64,000 nucleotides of DNA from Methylomarinovum caldicuralii (GTDB lineage: Bacteria > Pseudomonadota > Gammaproteobacteria > Methylococcales > Methylothermaceae). Shown here in pieces: positions 43,970 through 50,225 of the stretch. The stretch is from contig NZ_AP024714.1 of the NCBI RefSeq assembly GCF_033126985.1, positions 744,001 through 808,000 of the forward strand. Direction: 5' to 3'. Numbering within the stretch: the stretch's first letter is position 1; each line of letters starts with the position of its first letter. Both the position numbers and the translations under genes were made by a program. The notes under the pieces are model-generated. The model had not been told where the DNA came from, searched no databases, and saw only the letters and a list, made by a program, of their open reading frames with translations.

Positions 43970-44565
43970 TGCTCACCCGCAAGATCATTCTGCGCTACCG
44001 CGCCCCCGGGCACGTGCGCTTTCAGCTGCCGCCGCAGTTGTGTCGGCCGCCGGCGGCTCAGGAACTGGTGGCGGCGCTGCGCCAAGTGGACGGGGTGTAT
44101 CGGGTGCGTCTTGGCGGCAACAAGCTGTCGATCCGCTATCACGAGCCCTTCGTTTCCTTCCAGGAGCTGGCCCGCCACCTGCACCGCATCGTCACCGAGC
44201 TGGAACGCAGCGGCAAGCTGGAAGCCCGCTCGCCGGCGCCCCGCCGCCCGCTGCTGGCGCGGGTGAAGGGAAGCCGCCCGGTGCTCTGGATCCGCAATCA
44301 GCTCCAGGCGCTCAGGGAAACCGCCACCGCCTTCGGCATCCTCGCCCGCCGCGGAGTGCTGGGAAAAGGCGGCGCCATCATCGAGGATCCGCGGAAGTTC
44401 GCCTTCGAGTTCGCCAACGACGTGCTGGTGCTGTATCTCATCAAGGTCCACTGGCACCGCATTGTCCACGACTGGCTGCCCCACCCGGTCAGGAACCGCT
44501 ACAACTGGGCGGCAGTGTTCTACCTGACTTATCTGCTGGTGAAGTCACGGCTGCCGAAGCATTAA
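43969..44565 (+). CDS. HMA-like (HMA2-type) heavy-metal-associated protein
   Basis: 198 residues. The N-terminal 70 (IILRYRAPGHVRFQLPPQL to LSIRYHEPFVSFQELARHLHRIV) have the ferredoxin-like HMA shape but no CxxC, like HMA2-type domains. The rest is helical, basic, with a possible C-terminal membrane segment (WAAVFYLTYLLV). It overlaps the previous gene (TGATG), and its N-terminus resembles that of the CopA downstream, which suggests heteromeric contacts. Confidence 0.55.
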   Translation: MLTRKIILRYRAPGHVRFQLPPQLCRPPAAQELVAALRQVDGVYRVRLGGNKLSIRYHEPFVSFQELARHLHRIVTELERSGKLEARSPAPRRPLLARVKGSRPVLWIRNQLQALRETATAFGILARRGVLGKGGAIIEDPRKFAFEFANDVLVLYLIKVHWHRIVHDWLPHPVRNRYNWAAVFYLTYLLVKSRLPKH

Positions 44566-44586
44566 CCATTTTCACGCTGTGGTGGA

Positions 44587-44686
44587 GCCGCAGGAAATGG
44601 GTTCCGGATACGCCGTGAACCCTTCCCTTGGGGCTCGATACTCGGCCATCCAGGCCGAGTACGCTCCTCCACCCGTTCCCTGCGGC
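44587..44686. repeat. structured dispersed repeat, copy 1
   Basis: An element of about 100 bp between the HMA-like gene and copA. Outer arms 44587-44602 and 44671-44686 pair at 14 of 16 positions. A perfect nine-base hairpin TACTCGGCC/GGCCGAGTA (44639-44661) with loop ATCCA lies inside. From 44600 to 44661 it aligns with copy 2 (47925-47986), differing at about 11 of 62 positions. Looks like a REP/MITE-type element. Confidence 0.75.
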
Positions 44687-44706
44687 CCCAGAATTGGGGA
44701 AATACG

Positions 44707-47145
44707 ATGCCGAAACATTTCCAGACCGCCCACCGCTTGAGAAGACGGATCCGCATCATCTCGCCCGTGCTCAAGGGCGATCCGGAAAAGACCTACCTGT
44801 TCGAGATCCTCCTCACCAAGCGCCCGGAGGTCAAGCAGGTCAAGGCAGTGCCGGAGATCGGCTCGGTCACCGTCTGGTTCGATCCCAAGGCCCTGCCGGC
44901 CGAGAACCTGCTCAGGATCTGCGACGCCATCCTCGAGAACCTGGCCACCGCCAAACCGCAGATCGTCGAGAAAAAGCCCGTCGATCCCAACGCCCCGGTG
45001 GTGGAGACCCAGTTCGCCGTCGAGGGCATGACCTGCGCCTCCTGCGCCCTGCTGATCGAAATGCTCTTGCAGCGCGACCCGCGCATCCGCGAGGCCCAGG
45101 TCAACTTCGCCAGCGAGACCGCCACCGTCTGCGGGGCCTTGCCCAAGGAGGACATCTACCGCCTGATCGAGAGGCTCGGCTACCGCGCCCACCCCCTCGA
45201 CACCCTGAGCCAGCGCAAGCTGCTGATGGAACGCGAGCGGCGGCGCATCGAAGATGCCAAACGCCGCTGCGTCCGTGCCGCGCTGCTCAGCGCCCCCGCC
45301 ATCGTCATCGCCATGGTCATGCCCAAAGCGCGGATCTGGCACTGGGTCCAGTTCTTCCTCACCACCCCGGTGGTTTTCGGCAGCGGCCGGCCCTTTTTCG
45401 ACAAGGCCCTCGCCCTGGCCAAGCAGCGCCGCGCCAACATGGACACCCTGGTGGCCCTGGGCACCGGCGCCGCCTATGGCTACAGCGTGCCGGCCCTGCT
45501 GTTGGGGCGCCATCGCGAGCTCTATTTCGAGGCCGCCGCCGGCATCATCACCTTCGTGCTTCTGGGCCGCTGGCTGGAGGAGAAGGCCAAGGGCCAGGCC
45601 CACGAGGCCATCTTCAAACTGCTCGACCTGCAGCCGGAGACCGCCACCCGGATCCGGGACGGCAGGGAAGAGATCGTCCCCATCGATCAGGTCCAGGTGG
45701 GCGACATCCTCCTGGTGCGGCCCGGCGAACGCATTCCCACCGACGGCGAGGTGATCGAGGGCACCACCACCGTCGACGAATCCATGCTCACCGGCGAGTC
45801 GATGCCGGTGGTGAAAAATCCCGGCGATAAGGTGATCGGCGGCTGCATCAACGGCCCCGGCGCCTTCAAGATGAAGGCGACCGCGGTGGGGCCGGACACG
45901 GTGCTGGCGGGCATCGTCCAAATGGTGGACCAGGCCCAGGCCAGCAAGCTGCCGATCCAGAAGACCGTGGACCGGATCTCCGCCGTGTTCGTGCCCACGG
46001 TGATGGGGATCTCGGCCCTGACCTTCGGCGGCTGGCTGGCGGCCGGGGCCCGCTTTACCACCGCCCTCGGCAATGCCATCTCGGTGCTGCTGATCGCCTG
46101 TCCCTGCGCCCTGGGGCTGGCGACCCCGGCGGCGATCATGGTGGGCACCGGCCAGGCGGCCCGCCGCGGCATCTACATCAAGAACGGCGAGAGCCTGGAA
46201 CTGGCGGCCCATCTGACCGCCATCGTCTTCGACAAGACCGGCACCATCACCGAAGGCCGGCCCCAGGTGACTGACTTCATCCCCTTGAGCGACCGGGTCG
46301 ACGCCACCGCGCTGCTGGCCTGGATCGCCGGGGCCGAGGTGCGCTCGGAACACTTCCTCGCCCGCGCCATCGTCGAGTACGCCCAGGATCGTGGCGTGGA
46401 ACCGGCCCCGGCGGAAGACTTCGAAACCCGGCCCGGCGAGGGCATCGCTGCCGAAGTGGACGGCCACCGGCTGCTGATCGGCAACCAAAGCTGGCTGGCG
46501 CGTCACGAGATCCCCCTGGAGGGGCTGGAAGAGGCGATGGAGCGGCTGGCGGGCGAGGGCAAGACCCCGGTGCTGGCGGCCCTCGACGGATGGCCGGCGG
46601 CGCTGATCGGCATCGCCGACCGGCCCCGGCCCAACGCCCGCACCGCCATCGAGCGCCTCCACCGGATGGGCATTCGTACCCTGATGGTGACCGGAGACGT
46701 GGAAACCGCGGCCCGCTGCATTGCCCGGCAAGTCGGCATCGATGAGGTCGTGGCCCACGCCAGGCCCGACGACAAGCTCAGGATCATCCGCCGGCTCCAG
46801 GCCGAAGGCGAAAAGGTGGGGATGATCGGCGACGGTATCAACGATGCCCCGGCCCTGGCGGCGGCCGATGTCAGTTTCGCCATCGGCAGCGGCACCGACA
46901 TCGCCATCCACGCCGCCGACATCACCCTGGTCCAGGGCGACATCGAAAAGGTCGCCGAGGCCATCGACATCTCCGCCTTCACCCTGCGGGTCATCCGCCA
47001 GAACCTGGCCTGGGCCTTCGGCTACAACACCGTGGCGATCCCGGTGGCGGCCCTGGGCCGGCTCAATCCCATGATCGCCTCCGGCGCCATGGCCTTGAGT
47101 TCGGTGTCGGTGGTGCTCAATTCCCTGCGGCTGCAGCGGTGCTGA
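44707..47145 (+). CDS. Cu(I)-exporting P1B-type ATPase (CopA-like)
   Basis: 812 residues. A degenerate HMA-like domain without CxxC (about 10-75), a true HMA with GMTCASC at 107-113, eight predicted helices with the Cu-binding CPC at 465-467, DKTGT (phosphorylated Asp509), GDGINDAP (about 708-715), and the helix 7/8 motifs YN and MxxSS of Cu+ pumps. The normal SEHPLA motif reads SEHFLA (His549-Phe550), an uncommon change next to the ATP site. Exports Cu(I) from the cytoplasm. The small metal-binding genes upstream may feed it. Starts 20 bp after repeat copy 1. Confidence 0.9.
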   Translation: MPKHFQTAHRLRRRIRIISPVLKGDPEKTYLFEILLTKRPEVKQVKAVPEIGSVTVWFDPKALPAENLLRICDAILENLATAKPQIVEKKPVDPNAPVVETQFAVEGMTCASCALLIEMLLQRDPRIREAQVNFASETATVCGALPKEDIYRLIERLGYRAHPLDTLSQRKLLMERERRRIEDAKRRCVRAALLSAPAIVIAMVMPKARIWHWVQFFLTTPVVFGSGRPFFDKALALAKQRRANMDTLVALGTGAAYGYSVPALLLGRHRELYFEAAAGIITFVLLGRWLEEKAKGQAHEAIFKLLDLQPETATRIRDGREEIVPIDQVQVGDILLVRPGERIPTDGEVIEGTTTVDESMLTGESMPVVKNPGDKVIGGCINGPGAFKMKATAVGPDTVLAGIVQMVDQAQASKLPIQKTVDRISAVFVPTVMGISALTFGGWLAAGARFTTALGNAISVLLIACPCALGLATPAAIMVGTGQAARRGIYIKNGESLELAAHLTAIVFDKTGTITEGRPQVTDFIPLSDRVDATALLAWIAGAEVRSEHFLARAIVEYAQDRGVEPAPAEDFETRPGEGIAAEVDGHRLLIGNQSWLARHEIPLEGLEEAMERLAGEGKTPVLAALDGWPAALIGIADRPRPNARTAIERLHRMGIRTLMVTGDVETAARCIARQVGIDEVVAHARPDDKLRIIRRLQAEGEKVGMIGDGINDAPALAAADVSFAIGSGTDIAIHAADITLVQGDIEKVAEAIDISAFTLRVIRQNLAWAFGYNTVAIPVAALGRLNPMIASGAMALSSVSVVLNSLRLQRC

Positions 47146-47147
47146 CG

Positions 47148-47897
47148 ATGACGCGAAGCATCCTGCTGGCGGGATGGCTGGTGCCGGCTTTGGTTTGGGC
47201 CGATCCGGTCGGCCGCGCCATCGATCTTCAGGTGCAGACCCAGCAGGATTCCGCCAAGATCCAAAAGCGCATCGACCAGCTCGACGACGAGACCCGCCGG
47301 ATGGTGGCAGAATACCGCGCCAAGCTGGCGGAGCTGGACGAACTGGAACGCTACAACGGCCAGCTGGAAAAGCTGGTCGCCGACCAGCAGCAGGAGCTGG
47401 CCCTGCGCGAGCGCCAGCTGGCGGAACTGGAGACCCTCAAGCGCAGGCTGTTTCCGTTCATGCTGGAAATGCTGACGGCGCTGGAAAAGATCGTTGAGGT
47501 GGACACACCCTTCCTCACCGAGGAGCGCCGCCAGCGGGTGAAGGCGCTGCGCGAGCTGATGAACCGCGCCGACGTGGCCCTGCCGGAAAAATACCGCCGT
47601 CTGATGGAGGCGTTCCGCATCGAGGCCCGTTACGGTCACAACACCGAAACCTACGAGGGGCCGCTGGTAAACGACGGCCGGCGACGCACGGTGCGTTTCC
47701 TGCGCTTCGGCCGCACCGGGCTGTATTACCTGACCCTCGACGGTCACGAGGCCGGGATGTGGGACGAGAACACCCGCAGTTGGCGCCGGCTGGGGAAAGA
47801 TTTCCTCCGTCCCCTGGATCACGCCCTGCGAATCGCCGCCAAGCAGGCGCCGCCGGATCTGGTGGTGCTGCCCGTGCCGGCGCCGGAGGTCCCATGA
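47148..47897 (+). CDS. DUF3450 periplasmic coiled-coil protein
   Basis: 249 residues. Cleavable signal (LLAGWLVPALVWADP), then a long coiled coil (KRIDQLDDETRRMVAEYRAKLAELDELERY) and a beta-rich end (GRTGLYYLTLDGHEAGMWD). DUF3450 proteins accompany TtpC-ExbB-ExbD-TonB2 clusters and are thought to be periplasmic parts of the energiser. ATG 47148 lies three bases after the copA stop; a GTG at 47139 is possible. Overlaps the next gene by 4 bp. Confidence 0.85.
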   Translation: MTRSILLAGWLVPALVWADPVGRAIDLQVQTQQDSAKIQKRIDQLDDETRRMVAEYRAKLAELDELERYNGQLEKLVADQQQELALRERQLAELETLKRRLFPFMLEMLTALEKIVEVDTPFLTEERRQRVKALRELMNRADVALPEKYRRLMEAFRIEARYGHNTETYEGPLVNDGRRRTVRFLRFGRTGLYYLTLDGHEAGMWDENTRSWRRLGKDFLRPLDHALRIAAKQAPPDLVVLPVPAPEVP

Positions 47898-49321
47898 GCT
47901 TGGGGGGCAGGAAGGTGGGAATCCGGTTCCAGGGACGCTGTGAATCCGTCCCTGGACGCTCGGTACTCGGCCGTCCAGGCCGAGTATTCCCACCTTTCTT
48001 ATGGTTGTGGTGGTTGCTGATGTTGCTGCCCGTGCAGATTCAGGCCGTCACCCTGGAACAGTTGATCGAGACCATCCGCAAAGAGGGGGTGCAGGAGCAT
48101 CGCCACCAGGAAGCCCGGTTGCAGCGTTTCCTCGAGCATCACCAGGAGCGTCAGCGTCTGCTGAAACAGCTCGAGGCCAAAGTGGAGGCCGCCCGGGCCC
48201 GCGCCGATGCCCTCCGTAGCCGGTTCGAGGCCAACGAGAAAAAACTGGCCGAATTGGACCAAAAGTGGCGCCAGGAGGCCGGGGACATGGAGGACCTCTT
48301 CACCCAGGCGCGTCAGAACGCCAGCGCCATCAAGACGATGCTCGCCGGCTCCCTGGTCAACGCCCAAAAGCCGGGGCGGCTGGACTTTCTCGCTGCCCTC
48401 ACCGAACCCCGCCACCGGGCCACCTTGGCCGATCTGCGCCGGCTCTGGGACCTGCTCCTGGACGAGATCGCCGAGGCCGGCCGGGTGGTGCGCTTCCAGG
48501 CGCCGGTCATCGCCCCCGACGGCACCGAGGGTAAGCGTGCGGTGGTGCGGGTCGGGGTGTTCAACGCCTTTTCCGGCGGTCATTATCTGCGTTATCTCGC
48601 CGGCAGCGATCGGCTGCTGGAGCCGGCTCAGCAGCCGCCGGCCCGCTTCCGCCGTCTGGCCGCCGAACTGGAGCAGGCCCAGCAAGGCTGGCATCCGGTG
48701 GCGCTCGATCCTTCCCGCGGCGCCCTGCTGGCGCTGATGATCCAGCAGCCCGACTGGCGCGAGCGCCTGCGTCAGGGCGGGGTGATCGGTTACCTGATCC
48801 TCGCCCTGGGGGCGCTGGGGCTGCTGCTGGCGCTGGTGCGGGGTCTGGTCCTGGGCCGGGTCGCCCGGCGCATCGAGCGCCAGCGCCGCAGCGACGAGCC
48901 GCGTCCGGACAACCCCCTGGGCCGCCTGCAGCTGGCCCTGACCCGGCACAACCACGGCGGCGAGGAGGCGCTGGCGGTGTATCTCGACGAGCTGATCCAG
49001 CAGGAGAGCCGGCGTCTCTATGCCGGTATGACCTTCCTGGCGCTGCTGGCGACGATCTCGCCGCTGTTGGGGCTGTTGGGGACGGTCACCGGCATGATCG
49101 AGACCTTCGACGCCATCGCCCTGTTCGGCACCGGCGATCCCAAGCTCATGTCCGGCGGCATCTCCCAGGCGCTGGTGACCACCCAGGAAGGGTTGGCGGT
49201 GGCGGTGCCGCTGCTGTTGATCCACAGCCTGCTGCGCAGCCGCGCCGACCGCCTCGTCGCCGAGGTGAGTCAGGCCGGGGCCGAACTGCTGGAACGCTAC
49301 AGCGAGGCCGATCATGGCTGA
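47894..49321 (+). CDS. TtpC-like MotA/TolQ/ExbB proton-channel protein
   Basis: 475 residues. Signal-like N-terminus, periplasmic coiled coil (about 60-130) and beta domain, then three membrane helices with the ExbB core (SPLLGLLGTVTGMIETF, then VTTQEGLAVAVPLLLIH), as in TtpC of the Vibrio TonB2 system. ATG 47894 follows GGAGGTCCC. Residues 7-35 are encoded by repeat copy 2 (47912-47996). The hydrophobic signal starts only after it (FLWLWWLLMLLPVQIQA) and no better in-frame ATG exists, so the repeat appears incorporated into the gene. Confidence 0.85.
   Translation: MSLGGRKVGIRFQGRCESVPGRSVLGRPGRVFPPFLWLWWLLMLLPVQIQAVTLEQLIETIRKEGVQEHRHQEARLQRFLEHHQERQRLLKQLEAKVEAARARADALRSRFEANEKKLAELDQKWRQEAGDMEDLFTQARQNASAIKTMLAGSLVNAQKPGRLDFLAALTEPRHRATLADLRRLWDLLLDEIAEAGRVVRFQAPVIAPDGTEGKRAVVRVGVFNAFSGGHYLRYLAGSDRLLEPAQQPPARFRRLAAELEQAQQGWHPVALDPSRGALLALMIQQPDWRERLRQGGVIGYLILALGALGLLLALVRGLVLGRVARRIERQRRSDEPRPDNPLGRLQLALTRHNHGGEEALAVYLDELIQQESRRLYAGMTFLALLATISPLLGLLGTVTGMIETFDAIALFGTGDPKLMSGGISQALVTTQEGLAVAVPLLLIHSLLRSRADRLVAEVSQAGAELLERYSEADHG
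47912..47996. repeat. structured dispersed repeat, copy 2, inside TtpC gene
   Basis: 85 bp with perfect 11-bp outer arms (47912-47922 and 47986-47996, AAGGTGGGAAT/ATTCCCACCTT) and two perfect inner hairpins: ten bases (47928-47937/47947-47956, loop of nine) and nine bases (47964-47972/47978-47986, loop GTCCA). The last shares base 47986 with the outer arm. Folding gives a cloverleaf-like shape. Homologous to copy 1. Confidence 0.8.
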
Positions 49322-49817
49322 CGGACTGTGGACCCTGTTCGACCGTGGCGGCAGCCTGCTGTGGGTGATATTGGCCCTGTCCTGCCTGCTGTGGACCCTG
49401 ATCCTGGAGCGGCTGGATTTCCTCCGCCGCCTGTGGCCGCGGCTGCATTGCCGTATCCTGCAAAACTGGCGGCCGCCGATGAAGCCTGCGGTGGCGGAGC
49501 GCAAGCGTCAGGCGGTGCTGCTGCAGGCCGAGGTGCGGCTGGCGGCCCCCCTGGTGCTGATCGACGCCCTGACCCAGGCGCTGCCGCTTTTGGGGCTGCT
49601 GGGCACGGTCACCGGCATGATCAAGGTCTTCGACGTTCTCACCGTGTTCGGTACCGCCAACGCCCGCGCCATGGCGGCGGGCATTTCCGAGGCCCTGATC
49701 ACCACCCTGGCGGGGCTGGTGACCGCGCTTTCCGGACTGTGGCTTGCCAGCTATCTGCGGCAGCGGGCCCGCGCTGAACGCGACCGCCTGGCCCTGGAAC
49801 TGAGCGGGGAGGACTGA
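49314..49817 (+). CDS. exbB: ExbB (MotA/TolQ/ExbB family)
   Basis: 167 residues with three helices. LPLLGLLGTVTGMIKVFDVLTVFGTANARAMAAGISEALITTLAGL is the proton-channel signature. With ExbD it converts proton flow into TonB movement. Overlaps the TtpC gene by 8 bp. Confidence 0.9.
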   Translation: MADGLWTLFDRGGSLLWVILALSCLLWTLILERLDFLRRLWPRLHCRILQNWRPPMKPAVAERKRQAVLLQAEVRLAAPLVLIDALTQALPLLGLLGTVTGMIKVFDVLTVFGTANARAMAAGISEALITTLAGLVTALSGLWLASYLRQRARAERDRLALELSGED

Positions 49818-49820
49818 GCC

Positions 49821-50225
49821 GTGCCGCGCCAGCGTTTCGAGCCGCCCGCGCCCCCGAGCCTCAACATCACCCCCCTGATCGACATGGTGTTCATCCTGTT
49901 GATCTTCTTCGCCGTCAACGCCTCCTTCACCAAGGAGGCCGGGGTCGAGGTGGAGCGGCCGGCGGCCAGCACTGCGGTGGTCCAGGAACACGCTACCCTG
50001 TTTATCGCCGTCACCGCCGACGGCCGGGTGTGGATCGAGAAGAAAGTGGTCGATCCCCGCGACGTCCAGTCCCACGTGGCCCGCCTCCTGGCCGAGAACC
50101 CCAAGGCCGGGGTGGTGATTCTGGCCGACAAGCGCGCCCCCACCGGGGTGGTGCTGGAAGCGCTCGACGCCGCCCGCCTGGCCGGGGCCGAGCACGTGGC
50201 GGTGGCGGCGACGGTCAAGCCGTGA
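49821..50225 (+). CDS. exbD: ExbD
   Basis: 134 residues, GTG start at 49821. One helix with the channel aspartate in NITPLIDMVFILLIFF, then a periplasmic beta domain (VVILADKRAPTGVVLEALDAARLAGA). Acts with ExbB. Its stop lies 3 bp from the end of the antisense antitoxin gene, which separates it from tonB. Confidence 0.9.
   Translation: MPRQRFEPPAPPSLNITPLIDMVFILLIFFAVNASFTKEAGVEVERPAASTAVVQEHATLFIAVTADGRVWIEKKVVDPRDVQSHVARLLAENPKAGVVILADKRAPTGVVLEALDAARLAGAEHVAVAATVKP

Follow-up and report, generated by a model that had tools for sequence, protein, structure and literature searches.

We propose that a 93-nt copy of a dispersed hairpin repeat has inserted just after the start codon of a TtpC-like gene of Methylomarinovum caldicuralii and was kept there in frame, and that the arms of this repeat family template each other and thereby flip the core enclosed by them; we hold this reading as a whole to be likely. 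Repeats of this kind are known, as intragenic palindromes of the RPE, REP and ERIC type. What is new here is the combination of variable self-complementary arms with inversions inside genes. Coordinates refer to a stretch of 64,000 nucleotides (the window) of this genome, designated G000, and the features discussed are listed in Table 1; other genomes are designated G001 and upward, and loci by L numbers.

Table 1. Positions in the window of the repeat copies, the TtpC-like gene and its neighbours
Feature	Position	Strand	Basis or remark
Whole repeat copy in the TtpC-like gene	47908..48000	+	93 nt, 31 codons; relatives without the copy
Left arm of the outer stem, TtpC copy	47908..47931	+	arm length of 24 bp from 31 copies of the own genome
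Conserved two-hairpin core, TtpC copy	47932..47986	+	alignment and covariance model R1; ~5 nt shorter at its end than the usual 60 nt
Right-arm remnant TTCCCACCTTTCTT, TtpC copy	47987..48000	+	together with the core end ~15 nt short relative to full copies
Second family copy (L015), intergenic	44583..44690	+	upstream of a heavy-metal P-type ATPase gene
TtpC-like gene of the MotA/TolQ/ExbB family, with insert	47894..49321	+	475 aa; MotA_ExbB E 4e-27
Shine-Dalgarno GGAGG for ATG 47894	47885..47889	+	sequence; relatives similarly arranged
DUF3450 gene	47148..47897	+	stop overlaps the TtpC-like start (ATGA)
ExbB gene	49314-49817	+	same cluster
ExbD gene	49821-50225	+	same cluster

A repeat copy at the 5' end of the TtpC-like gene

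The label TtpC-like, given to the gene in an earlier sequence-only reading, suits both its MotA/TolQ/ExbB-family product and its neighbourhood of DUF3450, ExbB, ExbD and TonB genes. The reading frame is open across the insert and in phase with the gene. Counted from ATG 47894, the insert extends from the last base of codon 5 to codon 36. The repeat had previously been assigned to residues 7-35; its location in frame held, but its limits had to be widened to 47908-48000. As had also been stated, the hydrophobic signal comes only after the repeat, with the stretch FLWLWWLLMLLP beginning near residue 35. The copy folds at -58.6 kcal/mol (z = -8.1 against dinucleotide shuffles) into a closed stem topped by two hairpins. 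Full copies of the family measure 108 nt (a 60-nt core and two 24-nt arms) and the TtpC copy 93 nt, each divisible by three, and the ~15 nt missing from its right side are likewise a multiple of three. Elsewhere in this cluster, window positions 49060-49236 and 49583-49759 form a direct repeat of 70% identity that corresponds to paralogous MotA/TolQ/ExbB domains of adjoining genes.

Comparison with TtpC homologues lacking the repeat, which the sequence-only reading had named as a check, revealed a short signal peptide directly after the equivalent ATG, without an insert (MTKLWWLLGLLPLLAFGA..., MKRSATAWLTVFWIILALP..., MKQVKWILVLSLFGFL...). Following the DUF3450 gene, the orthologous N-termini are MTKLWWLLGLLPLLAFGADFQ in Methylohalobius SKW56 (G001), MKRSATAWLTVFWIILALPQWAQA in G008 and MKQVKWILVLSLFGFL in G016. 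When the flanks of the M. caldicuralii insert are joined without the 93 nt, the result is MSLGGWLWWLLMLLPVQIQA, an ordinary-looking signal peptide. The absence of the segment from the relatives and the normal look of the joined flanks thus support the view that it is an insertion. A search with the flanks of the TtpC insert gave no match in the close relative G009, hence no close empty site.

Copies, structure and distribution of the family

The claim of a dispersed structured repeat was borne out, the repeat being far above chance. BLASTN recovered 21 copies at E<2e-5 from the own genome (2.69 Mb, one contig), and the covariance model found 36 copies there, 47 in G009 and 52-95 in G005, G002 and G004. 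Matches to the model at E<=1e-5, often in many copies, occur in 32 genomes among the 151 of the order; the figure for the class (a gammaproteobacterial sample) is 43 of 274. The related intergenic copy reported at 44.6 kb was confirmed. It lies between an ORF ending at 44565 and one starting at 44707, is also present in G009 in identical orientation, and was paired unsupervised within the window with the TtpC copy (44593-44661 with 47918-47986, 80% identity over the aligned pair).

Aligned with one another, the own copies define a ~60-nt core that forms two hairpins and shows covariation within it. The core is enclosed by an outer stem that has a different sequence in each copy and still pairs; the length of this stem, 24 bp, was established from 31 copies of the own genome. 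Arm pairing over positions 1-24 is 0.85 and falls to background from position 25 onward; arms re-dealt between copies give 0.52. Identity between copies is 0.82 in the cores and 0.41 in the arms (0.30 when shuffled). Open frames number 4.1 of six per element, compared with 3.2 of six in its own shuffles. The 24-bp arms correspond to the terminal inverted repeats of MITEs, though their sequence varies between copies. Mobility driven by a RAYT was rejected since a search of the own genome for a Y1/RAYT transposase (PF01797) gave no match despite the 36 copies.

Inversions and coupled arm changes at shared sites

Among the copies compared, G000 and G009, whose flanks are ~94% identical (~6% different), share about 26 sites. 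The core has the same orientation in 19 pairs, one of them involving a G009 site with two adjacent copies, and is inverted between collinear flanks in 7. In six of these seven, the flipped core is the best match among the compared copies of the other genome, once with 100% identity. The cleanest inversions are L003/L106, L016/L099 and L130/L118; some of the other inverted sites have indels in their nearest flanks. At L097 (G009:C1:1408564-1408773), two adjacent copies lie where the own genome has one (L020), which suggests a local duplication of the element. Among sites occupied in one genome only, three have a clean empty counterpart bearing direct repeats of 5-6 nt; several others are decayed and retain remnants of the arms. 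At L014/L153, L095/L162, L103/L165 and L119/L167 the core is missing and remnants of the arms are left, probably a record of hairpin-driven deletion.

In the arms of orthologous copies of the two genomes, we counted 38 double changes that preserve a pair, and 43 double changes in all as against ~10 expected if both sides changed independently. In well-aligned pairs, the arms change by 7-10% and adjacent intergenic DNA by 9%, the core being slower. Faster-than-neutral evolution of the arms, suggested by a first count of 14% versus 5%, disappeared in this comparison and was discarded.

We suggest that, during replication, template switching at the hairpin would let the arms template each other. 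Such mutual templating would keep them complementary while their sequence drifts, and would occasionally invert the core in place. Template switching is known to homogenise arms and invert spacers, including in yeast coding DNA (PMC8604942); it is also reported to give rise to RNA stems and to preserve them (PMC8794818). Both of these features of template-switched inverted repeats, homogenised arms and inverted spacers, are found in the present family, for which template switching between arms would be the simplest single process to account for the coupled arm changes together with the inversions.

A somewhat unlikely alternative is that stem pairing is maintained because an RNA or DNA structure, such as a processing signal, is under selection, and that the inversions arise separately by recombination. 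Covariation is present in stem and core alike, and Ysr224, a relative discussed below, is catalogued as an expressed RNA. Because the arms change no faster than neighbouring intergenic DNA, selection on pairing could still cause the coupled changes. However, in-place inversion at 7 of 26 sites points to a DNA-level process acting between the arms, so that one process would cover both facts, and several copies have decayed by partial deletion.

In-frame copies in other genes and the start of the TtpC-like gene

Template switching of this sort could also operate inside genes. Given its symmetric arms and mostly open frames, the element could invert there without loss of the frame and swap ~20-30 residues for a different peptide. 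A copy was counted as lying in a gene only if its ORF has Pfam domains to either side of it; most other copies are also spanned by long ORFs, which we disregarded because spurious ones are common in this G+C-rich genome. Between the winged-helix and DEAD-associated domains of an Lhr-type helicase, a copy is present in G000 (L130, G000:C1:1690260-1690325), G009, G008 and G004 (L118, L239 and L240). The copy is oriented + in G000 and - in the other three, with the frame open in all, and its core codes for QGRREPFPGGSNRGHPGRERPE in G000 versus QGVRGPDDRDLSPQGRVHGVPE in G009. Partial copies are present in the helicase of G003, G005 and G007; G001, G002, G006 and more distant species have the helicase without the element. 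In an AcrB/CusA-type RND pump, the copy is in - orientation in G009 and G003 and in + orientation in G007, with the frame open both ways (L124/L262 at G009:C1:682005-682069, L263 and L265); the pump of G004 and G011 is without it. As judged from these sequences, related copies in two genes appear to have flipped in place between species with the reading frame unbroken.

The sequence-only reading had offered two fates for the TtpC insert, acceptance as coding sequence or destruction of the original start. The second is contradicted: ATG 47894, the GGAGG four bases before it and the overlap of the ATG with the TGA of the DUF3450 gene are all intact, and relatives begin at an equivalent position, so the original start has been kept. 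The first is plausible because the insert is open in frame and two more genes contain in-frame copies. The insert therefore looks to have been accepted as coding sequence with the original start retained; the gene would still be translated from 47894, with the insert as a putative long basic n-region of the signal peptide. By this account, a structured miniature repeat of ~108 bp (a 24-bp stem and a two-hairpin core of ~60 nt) would have inserted just past the start codon and been retained since its length, 93 nt after a one-sided loss of ~15 nt, is divisible by three and leaves no stop in frame.

Alternatively, the insert might be an effectively untranslated leader, with translation now starting at a TTG just downstream (in LWLWW) and the hairpin influencing translation of the operon at the RNA level. 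For REPs close to the 5' ends of genes, a non-coding post-transcriptional role has indeed been argued (PMC3733652), and the very stable hairpin of the insert begins ~15 nt past ATG 47894, at the edge of an initiating ribosome. We nevertheless judge a leader to be unlikely, because the original ATG, its GGAGG and the ATGA coupling are preserved as in relatives, no Shine-Dalgarno sequence precedes the downstream TTG, the insert is open and in phase, and two other genes have in-frame copies in their middle.

Origin of the arms

The arms might instead be unrelated target sequence, the target being copied in inverse or the core inserting into the loop of an existing palindrome. Arms that differ per copy around a conserved core, and the retention of one arm at some unoccupied sites, are in line with such an origin. 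Against it, recently amplified copies in G002, G004 and G005 have arms in common and even sequence beyond the arms. In G005, core and arms were recently amplified within longer, MITE-like repeats with TTTACAAA/TTTGTAAA terminal repeats (L184-L193); in G004, the core lies in units of ~170 nt, some in tandem, bounded by TTACCGTGAAA and GGGGTGA..TTCATGA (L196-L215). Since these recent amplifications in other members of the genus share arms between copies, the arms belong to the element. Moreover, a weak arm pattern is common to the copies, as seen from the arm identity above the shuffled value, and both arms are absent at the empty sites of L116/L157 and L117/L158, and nearly so at L105/L159. Target-derived arms, including insertion into pre-existing palindromes, were thus rejected as very improbable.

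It is scarcely credible that misassembly of a palindromic region produced the inversions: although hairpins are difficult to sequence, at ~108 bp the element fits within an ordinary read, and both orientations occur in several independent genomes, inside open genes without frameshifts.

Relation to known repeats and small RNAs

The Rfam family RF02770, Ysr224 ('Yersinia sRNA 224'), gave hits at the element that span its full model (1-107) in 7 of 11 loci, with a best E of 5e-5 and scores of 19-30 bits (best 29.5), which are below the gathering score of 70. The two are alike in core order and hairpins (ACGCcGuaAAuaCauCCaUGUAgGCuCG...CaUCCcuGG...ACGC), but Ysr224 is annotated as an sRNA and not as a repeat. 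On this sequence likeness, Ysr224 appears to be a distant member of the family. It has been placed among the 20 most prevalent 'sRNAs' (PMC9029176), a prevalence that fits a dispersed repeat.

Several systems resemble the present family in part. Rickettsia palindromic elements are likewise palindromic miniature repeats in frame inside unrelated protein genes (PMC10969869), and the same location in otherwise normal genes is seen here in the TtpC-like gene, the Lhr helicase and the RND pump. Compared by description, however, RPEs have conserved peptides, whereas here arms and peptides vary by copy and the orientation flips. The CGTC-1 heterodimers of Halothiobacillus neapolitanus, paired hairpins in a longer palindrome of 41 bp, look alike in design and have 'attcacg' beside the palindrome, which the present core also has on its reverse strand (PMC3733652); yet that palindrome has one consensus, in contrast to a 24-bp stem that varies per copy. 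GTAG/CGTC-tagged REPs also occur inside ORFs, some of them at N-termini, and CGTC REPs are defined by a CGTC tag, a stem of 8-9 bp starting with A-T pairs, a loop of 4-5 and a CCA tail (PMC3733652). Hairpin 2 of our core has an 8-9 bp stem and a 5-nt loop, yet it follows GCGT and begins with A-C, so that neither the CGTC tag nor the A-T start is clearly recognisable. The enterobacterial MITE-like hairpins ERIC (RU-1), YPAL (RU-2) and RU-3 are also found in frame in genes, including signal-peptide genes, and are described with TA target duplications (PMC2759123), none of which were seen for the present family. Correia repeat enclosed elements are short repeats that also invert in place (Elbeyioglu 2017, in PMC10969869); as far as that account goes, they lie mostly upstream of genes and carry promoters, whereas the present family flips inside genes too. 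We found no description in the open-access literature of in-place inversion inside genes for such repeats.

A possible in-frame flip module

A full-form element amounts to 36 codons with symmetric arms and frames that are mostly open in both directions. We tentatively advance the idea, to which we give less than even weight, that this hairpin repeat, widespread in gammaproteobacteria, is a natural module for in-frame flipping that would insert into genes, invert by template switching and exchange a peptide without a frameshift, possibly within populations. It would be a natural example, from bacteria, of short inverted repeats that seem to alter protein sequence by flipping, at orthologous sites of close species. 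Covariation in a stem, usually taken as proof of a functional RNA, can accompany flipping at the DNA level, and Ysr224, an often-annotated 'small RNA', may largely be a dispersed repeat. No carriage of the own core by a plasmid or phage was found, and the Ysr224-like core gave no match among 20,395 E. coli records. A weak partial Ysr224-like core, unannotated, is present on large plasmids of Pantoea agglomerans (e.g. NZ_CP016890.1:192123-192165).
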